A DNA stretch of 64,000 nt from Candidatus Desulfopertinax cowenii (GTDB taxonomy: Bacteria; Bacillota; Desulfotomaculia; Desulfotomaculales; Desulforudaceae). This document shows, piece by piece, positions 49,084 through 52,866 of the stretch. Location: positions 62,001 to 126,000 of the forward strand of contig MPOA01000006.1 of assembly GCA_001899445.1 (NCBI GenBank), given 5' to 3'. The first letter of the stretch is position 1, and each line of letters starts with the position of its first letter. The position numbers and the translations under genes were made by a program. Below the pieces are notes generated by a model. That model saw only the letters and a list, made by a program, of their open reading frames with translations, made no database searches and was not told where the DNA came from.

Positions 49084-49172
49084 GCGCCGGGAACCGTGTC
49101 CGCGCTTCGGAGTGGTATACCGGGCATTCCTTCCCGGGTACAATAAGAAAAACTCTCCCGGGAGGGCTGATA

Positions 49173-49436
49173 ATGATCGACATTACGGTTTATACCAACC
49201 GCGTGGAAGGCGCCAGCTGAAGGAGTCTGCAAGCTTTGGCCGGGAAAGTCAAAGACAAGTATGGTGACAGCGTAAACGTGAACGTAGTCCGACCGCAGGA
49301 CCGGGAGCGGAACGGTGACCCGCACACCCCCGCCGCCCCGAACATTGCGGTGGACGGAATGATCCTAAACAAACGGATCACCCTGTCGGAACTCGACCGG
49401 ATCGTCGCCCAGCAATTGCGCCGGGAACGTCATTAG
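49173..49436 (+). CDS. candidate thioredoxin-like selenoprotein with in-frame UGA
   Basis: An 88-codon frame with a single internal TGA at 49218-49220 (codon 16). ATG 49173 follows GGGAGGG by 8 nt. Reading TGA as Sec gives a small thioredoxin-fold protein: beta strand IDITVYTN, active-site region EGASU-RSLQALAGKVK, helix, second strand VNVNVV, the cis-Pro segment AAPNIAVDGMILNK, and a final helix. The UGA sits where related proteins have a redox Cys. CTTTGG / TCAAAG forms a hairpin starting 15 nt after UGA with a 9-nt loop, as expected of a bacterial SECIS. The alternative is a nonsense mutation. Confidence 0.6.
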
Positions 49437-51688: not shown

Positions 51689-51988
51689 ATGCCGAGGACA
51701 AGACCACCGTACCCACCGGAGTTTCGGGCGGAAGCCGTGCGCACGGGTAGCGCGAGAGCGGCAAGAACTTGAGCGGAAGTGGCCCGGGATCTGGGGGTAT
51801 CCACAGAGTCATTACGTCATTGGATCCGGCAGCACGAGATCGACAGTGGTCAGCTCAAGGGCCTGACGACGGCCGAGCGTGAGGAATTGCGGCGGCTGCG
51901 CCGCGAGAACCGGATTTTACGCGAAGAGCGTGAAATCCTAAAAAAAGCCGCCGCCCTCAATGCCCAGGAGACCAACGGGAAACGGTAG
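51689..51988 (+). pseudogene. IS3-family transposase OrfA, frameshifted
   Basis: Begins MPRTRPPYPPEFRAEAVR, then the frame is scrambled over about 35 bp and meets TGA before resuming as EVARDLGVSTESLRHWI, the helix-turn-helix, and a leucine-zipper tail (LRRLRRENRILREEREILKK). The loss removes the segment normally reading LVRESGKS. Confidence 0.85.
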
Positions 51989-51990
51989 CC

Positions 51991-52866
51991 GTGTCCCTTT
52001 TCGTGGAGCGGGAGAGGGCCAACCACTCCGTCGTCACGATGTGTCGCGTACTGGGTGTCTCCACCAGCGGATACTACAAGTGGCGGGCTCAAGAGCCCGG
52101 GAAGATGCCAGACTAACCGAGTTGATCGTGCAAATCTACCAGGACAGCCGCGGGACCTACGGGGCGCCCCGTATCCACGCGGTGCTGGCCCTGAAGTGCG
52201 GCATCCGTTGCAGCCAAAAGCGTGTGGCGCGGTTGATGCGTCAATCCGGCCTGACCGGGGTGCACCGCCGCCGGCTTCGGGGCTGCACCCGGCGTGATCC
52301 GGCGCGCCCGTCCTATCCAGACGCAGGGGCAGCGGGATTTCACAGCGCAAGCGCCCCCAATCAACTGTGGGTTGCCGACATCACCCAGCACGCCACCGGT
52401 GAAGGCTGGCTCTACTTTGCCCCGGTCATCGATGTCTTTTCCCGAAGGGTTGTGGGCTGGAGCATGGGGGATGTGTCCGACAGCGGACGCAGGTCCAGCG
52501 CCGCCGTGAACATGGCCGTCTCGAACCGCCGGCCGGCACCCGGGTTAATCCACCACTCCGGTCACGGTAGCCAGTACACCTCGCTGGCGTTTAGCCAGCG
52601 GCTCCAAGAGGCCGGGATCCTGGGATCAATGGGTTCGGTCGGCGACGCACTGGACAACGCCATTGCCGAAAGCTTTTTCGCCACACTGCAGACCGAGTTG
52701 CTGAACCAAAGATACTGGCCGACCCGTTAAATGCTGCGATCGGCGATTTTTGAATTCGTCGAGGTCTTTTACAACCGCTCAAAGCCTCCATTCGGCACTC
52801 GGGTATCTGAGCCCGGCCGAGTTCGAAAGGAGGTGGCATTTGCAGAAACAGGGAGCGGTAGCTTGA
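51991..52866 (+). pseudogene. IS3-family transposase OrfB (DDE), multiply disrupted
   Basis: rve-domain integrase: NQLWVADITQHATGEGW (first Asp), LIHHSGHGSQYTS where the second acidic D of HSDxGxQY is G, and DNAIAESFFATLQTELL (Glu). A frameshift lies near 52095, a CAA-to-TAA nonsense codon at about 52728, and another frameshift near 52776 before HSALGYLSPAEFERRWHL. Inactive. Confidence 0.87.

Follow-up and report, generated by a model that had tools for sequence, protein, structure and literature searches.

A probable selenocysteine-decoded gene for a small thioredoxin-fold protein related to TsoC in Candidatus Desulfopertinax cowenii

Positions 49173-49436 on the forward strand of the window, by which we mean the whole 64,000-nucleotide stretch of Candidatus Desulfopertinax cowenii DNA analysed here (GenBank contig MPOA01000006.1, positions 62,001 to 126,000), almost certainly hold a selenoprotein gene of the thioredoxin fold whose in-frame TGA is decoded as selenocysteine (Sec), a reading built on sequence analysis. 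Comparison with relatives establishes the gene, its Sec codon, a SECIS-like hairpin, the fold and the single redox residue. On the best reading it belongs to a new subfamily, probably unannotated so far, of one-selenol redox proteins with the thioredoxin fold that resemble TsoC.

The frame opens with ATG at 49173 and runs through 87 codons, counting TGA as Sec, to the stop TAG at 49434-49436. A ribosome-binding site, GGGAGGG, lies on the same strand at 49160-49166, 6 nt ahead of the ATG, and a G-rich site also precedes the start codon in homologues; a scan for sigma-70 promoters upstream of the gene found nothing. As the initial annotation had described, the frame is interrupted by TGA alone, at codon 16 (49218-49220, +), where Sec is predicted within the motif GASU. 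With TGA read as U, translation gives the 87 residues MIDITVYTNRVEGASURSLQALAGKVK...QQLRRERH. Conventional gene calling had been expected to return a truncated ORF, and under the ordinary code there are indeed only a stub of 15 codons and an ORF at 49236-49436 that starts with TTG. Upstream, at a distance of 89 nt and in the same direction, lies a metallophosphoesterase gene (PF00149; 47584..49083, +). Downstream, an endonuclease III-like gene (PF00730; 49378-50250, -) converges on the selenoprotein gene, the two 3' ends overlapping by the 59 bp reported earlier. Two adjoining ORFs at 51779-52730 (+) resemble, by eye, an IS3-type transposase pair.

If the TGA were a real stop, the locus would be a pseudogene, or only the short ORF from TTG 49236 would be made. 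That ORF exists and has AAGGAG 10 nt upstream of its TTG; evidence from related genes nevertheless makes this explanation very improbable. In the 60 nearest relatives, 18 related places were found in 13 genomes, and every one carries the in-frame TGA, which is the sole stop in 17, the extra TAA of the 18th match being its natural end. A profile (A1) built from 16 sequences and run over 113 genomes of the order gave 28 matches in 20 genomes, 24 of them with exactly one TGA and four free of stops, and the TGA column is identical in all homologous frames read. Such retention of one TGA at the same column in 24 related frames speaks against a real stop and is more than chance would be expected to produce. 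In the four stop-free homologues (G032, G041, G070 and G016) the Sec column is occupied by Cys, and the next residue is Arg, which the window protein also has there; the motifs are TEPLGTSCRKL (once), TEPLGTNCRKL (twice) and KPAGASCRHM. Sec-type and Cys-type profiles align with an hhalign probability of 97.5 (E 5.9e-12, 81 columns). At the position of the TGA, homologues thus show a Sec codon or Cys and not the decay that the initial annotation had named as the alternative outcome, and Cys in place of TGA is itself an argument against a stop.

Phylogenetically, the window gene falls within a monophyletic clade of seven genes from seven genomes (support 100/98), here called subfamily A. Upstream and downstream of the TGA alike, dN is lower than dS among six intact genes of this subfamily (for the window gene against that of G002, dN is 0.19 and dS 0.54 after the TGA), and purifying selection on both sides again counts against a real stop. 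TTG 49236 is not a conserved start, since CTG takes its place in G015B, G019C and G071a, and a protein started there would be missing both strand 1 and the active site. Decay does occur in two related copies elsewhere, which lends the pseudogene reading some ground. The subfamily-A copy in G004 is frameshifted close to the 3' end, the lost tail being still readable in another frame; the cause is recent decay or else an error in the sequence. A sister-subfamily copy in G001 has a broken start and end and lies directly 3' of a selD remnant, which suggests a selD-linked operon in decay. Beyond the order the family is seldom met, with one more genome (G115) carrying it among 398 sampled in the phylum, and a scan of viral contigs found no relative.

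Sec decoding is further supported by a bacterial SECIS-like hairpin shortly after the TGA, with a stem at 49234-49240 / 49248-49254 (+) and a 7-nt apical loop, CGGGAAA, that contains G. The initial annotation had recognised the stem CTTTGG...TCAAAG, which one further C-G pair lengthens to 7 bp; the hairpin stands, whereas its start, given as 15 nt after the UGA, was measured at 49234, 13 nt past the TGA. Its role as a SECIS element gains support from covariation and silent-site conservation among relatives. In the 21 sequences compared, 89.8% of the alignment cells of the 7-pair stem are paired, against 10-53% for slid versions; in 10 cells both sides of the stem have changed, with U-A replaced by C-G or by A-U among the examples. 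Covariation amounts to 0.241 compared with 0.149+-0.020 in shuffled alignments, and none of 500 shuffles reaches this value, the pairing percentage or the number of doubly changed cells; the control slid by +1 has a similar covariation (0.264), yet only 53% of its cells are paired. In six orthologues, codons 22, 23, 24, 26 and 27, five of the seven hairpin codons, are each written with a single codon, while none of the 24 other codons for invariant residues is frozen in this way (hypergeometric P 1.2e-4). The folding energy of the window hairpin taken singly is not better than that of shuffles (z 0.2 to 0.8), and RNAalifold retains only 4 pairs on the alignment, so that the support for the hairpin is comparative.

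The machinery needed to read such a codon is complete in the host assembly (1.78 Mb, 99.96% complete). There selB (C5:27773-29656, E 4e-113) adjoins selA (C5:29689-31062, E=1.9e-186), selD lies at C1:148504-149424 (E 4.9e-114), and a tRNA-Sec with TCA anticodon (UCA) lies at C6:180706-180795. The absence of these genes had been proposed as grounds for dismissing the selenoprotein, and all four are present. Because selD carries one in-frame TGA, it is probably a selenoprotein gene itself. Within the order the machinery does not discriminate, since a SelB match was found in all 60 nearest genomes, above its cut-off in 58. From these observations we infer that Sec is inserted in the cell at codon 16, where SelB, bound to the hairpin just past the UGA, would bring Sec-tRNA(UCA). 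Which residue is inserted goes beyond what comparison by itself can tell, and the UGA might be read as another amino acid through near-cognate suppression or a change of code. We judge this extremely improbable in view of the complete machinery with tRNA-Sec(UCA), the conserved hairpin at the right place, the exchange with Cys and the kinship to a named selenoprotein family.

Read with Sec at codon 16, the gene would yield a protein of 87 residues that adopts the thioredoxin fold and carries its selenocysteine where helix 1 begins. The thioredoxin fold that had been proposed for the sequence on both sides of the TGA is borne out by an AlphaFold2 model, by Foldseek and by the invariant Pro56. 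The model (pLDDT 84.1, pTM 0.74) has a strand at 2-7, helix 14-33, strand 34-39, helix 41-47, strands 57-60 and 63-65, and helix 71-86. It displays the β-α-β and β-β-α arrangement, with the active site at the start of helix 1 and a predicted cis-Pro. In the thioredoxin fold a cis-proline stands just before the strand matching 57-60, the place of Pro56 here (codon 49338-49340, +; alignment, AlphaFold2 and Foldseek), whose role would follow from the fold. Almost all Foldseek matches in the PDB are thioredoxins (best E 4.5e-4), the best of them with a TM score of 0.70-0.75 on the query, and Pfam has no match to the window protein. Invariant in the family alignment are M1, G13, Sec16, L19, G24, P56 and V60. 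The CxxC dithiol site of thioredoxin proper is absent; GASU is found instead, with Sec at the place of the second Cys, and this agrees with the earlier description of a GxxU single-selenol site. The window protein contains no Cys at all, and Sec16 is therefore its sole redox residue, with no selenol partner inside the protein.

Since the protein is without cysteine, it would work through its one selenol, either as an enzyme or as a carrier. The selenolate, its pKa kept low by the helix end and the neighbouring Arg17, would attack an oxidised or electrophilic substrate such as a disulfide, peroxide, persulfide or selenide-level compound. The selenium-bound intermediate would then be freed by an outside thiol or a partner protein, a release from outside that is proposed by analogy with monothiol glutaredoxins. 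We give this one-selenol reductase chemistry, as described, about an even chance.

The genomic neighbourhood offers two different contexts for the family. In subfamily A the gene order is ddl-like, PLPC-like, metallophosphoesterase and selenoprotein, then mostly a convergent endonuclease III-like gene, and the metallophosphoesterase gene stands directly 5' of the selenoprotein gene in all seven genomes. The pairing is not obligate, as the metallophosphoesterase gene occurs in 22 of the 60 genomes with the selenoprotein gene behind it in 7 only; within 1.5 kb, the other 15 showed neither a remnant of the selenoprotein nor a Cys version. The sister subfamily belongs to operons, found whole in some genomes and in part in others, with genes for LysR, selD, a TrsS-like radical SAM protein (under the TrsS cut-off), a DVU_1556-like methyltransferase and a NapH-like ferredoxin. 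The best model for the LysR is the selenium-metabolism LysR (NF040786; 206.5 bits, cut-off 250), and selD adjoins the sister-subfamily gene in eight genomes (G006, G012, G019, G034, G038, G071, G082 and G115). Two further clusters were seen in passing. One (G115:C7:186000-200000) comprises LysR, selD, two tandem TsoC-like genes, a membrane protein of 318 aa that is TauE/SafE-like by eye, and a third TsoC-like gene. In the other (G071:C1:4290000-4316000), a stretch of about 16 kb contains TGA genes of the TsoC-like and TsoX-like (HSGNPNU) kinds together with selD and two LysR genes.

These contexts bear on what the selenoprotein does. The same protein might serve another function if the family carried or channelled reduced selenium in selenium metabolism and were no general reductase. 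Sister-subfamily copies adjoin selD, a LysR of the selenium-metabolism type, or both, and the broken G001 copy has its selD remnant; the window subfamily, by contrast, lies away from any sel gene, behind the metallophosphoesterase, and gene proximity is not function. We regard such a role as unlikely. The sister operons make selenium handling by the TsoC-like family possible, and a more specific version, to which we give slightly less credence still, would make the family a carrier or reductant of selenium on behalf of SelD, a selenoprotein then feeding selenoprotein synthesis, with the window branch recruited beside the metallophosphoesterase. For the window protein itself we keep to the Sec-decoded thioredoxin-fold selenoprotein as the preferred reading. 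On this reading, relatives of Desulforudis have a further subfamily of very small selenoproteins, one that standard annotation has probably missed, since the gene has the look of a broken one and scores under the cut-off that the nearest curated model sets. The association of the sister subfamily with selD and with a regulator linked to selenium provides a testable lead on the role of orphan one-selenol proteins.

That nearest model is TsoC (NCBIfam NF045708), which matches the window protein over its full length (3-82 on 2-85 of 87, E 3.8e-5) and matches 15 of the 16 aligned family members. With an HMMER score of 23.6 bits under the curated cut-off of 45, membership was rejected, and the window gene is thus a relative of TsoC and not TsoC by curated definition; no genome of the 60 exceeds the cut-off. 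The company of TsoA and TsoB, taken as a criterion for TsoC from the shared naming, was not found in 16 genomes: there was no TsoA, in a search that matched no control genome either, and no TsoB over its cut-off. A review (PMC13188914) lists TsoC, the NEPxGxxU motif selenoprotein, for which it credits Haft and Tolstoy 2025, and TsoX as recently described families. The window protein is like TsoC in length, in its full-length profile match and in a GxxU whose one Sec is identically placed; it differs in motif, NRVEGASU against NEPxGxxU, the sister subfamily having mostly SNRPAGxxU. TsoX (NF045809, HSGNPxU motif (seleno)protein) is similar in size and Sec place and differs in motif; the window protein scores 14.8 bits against its cut-off of 52, and the family profile also picks up TsoX-like genes in G041, G068 and G071. 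The Cys homologues (TEPLGTxCRKL or KPAGASCRHM) share the profile, with Cys for Sec, a clade of their own and other neighbours. The best sequence-profile match in the PDB, weak though full-length, is 1nho, 'Probable Thioredoxin' (E 0.037), one of the small archaeal thioredoxin-like proteins; these are alike in size and fold and have a CxxC site, whereas the window protein has GxxU and no Cys.
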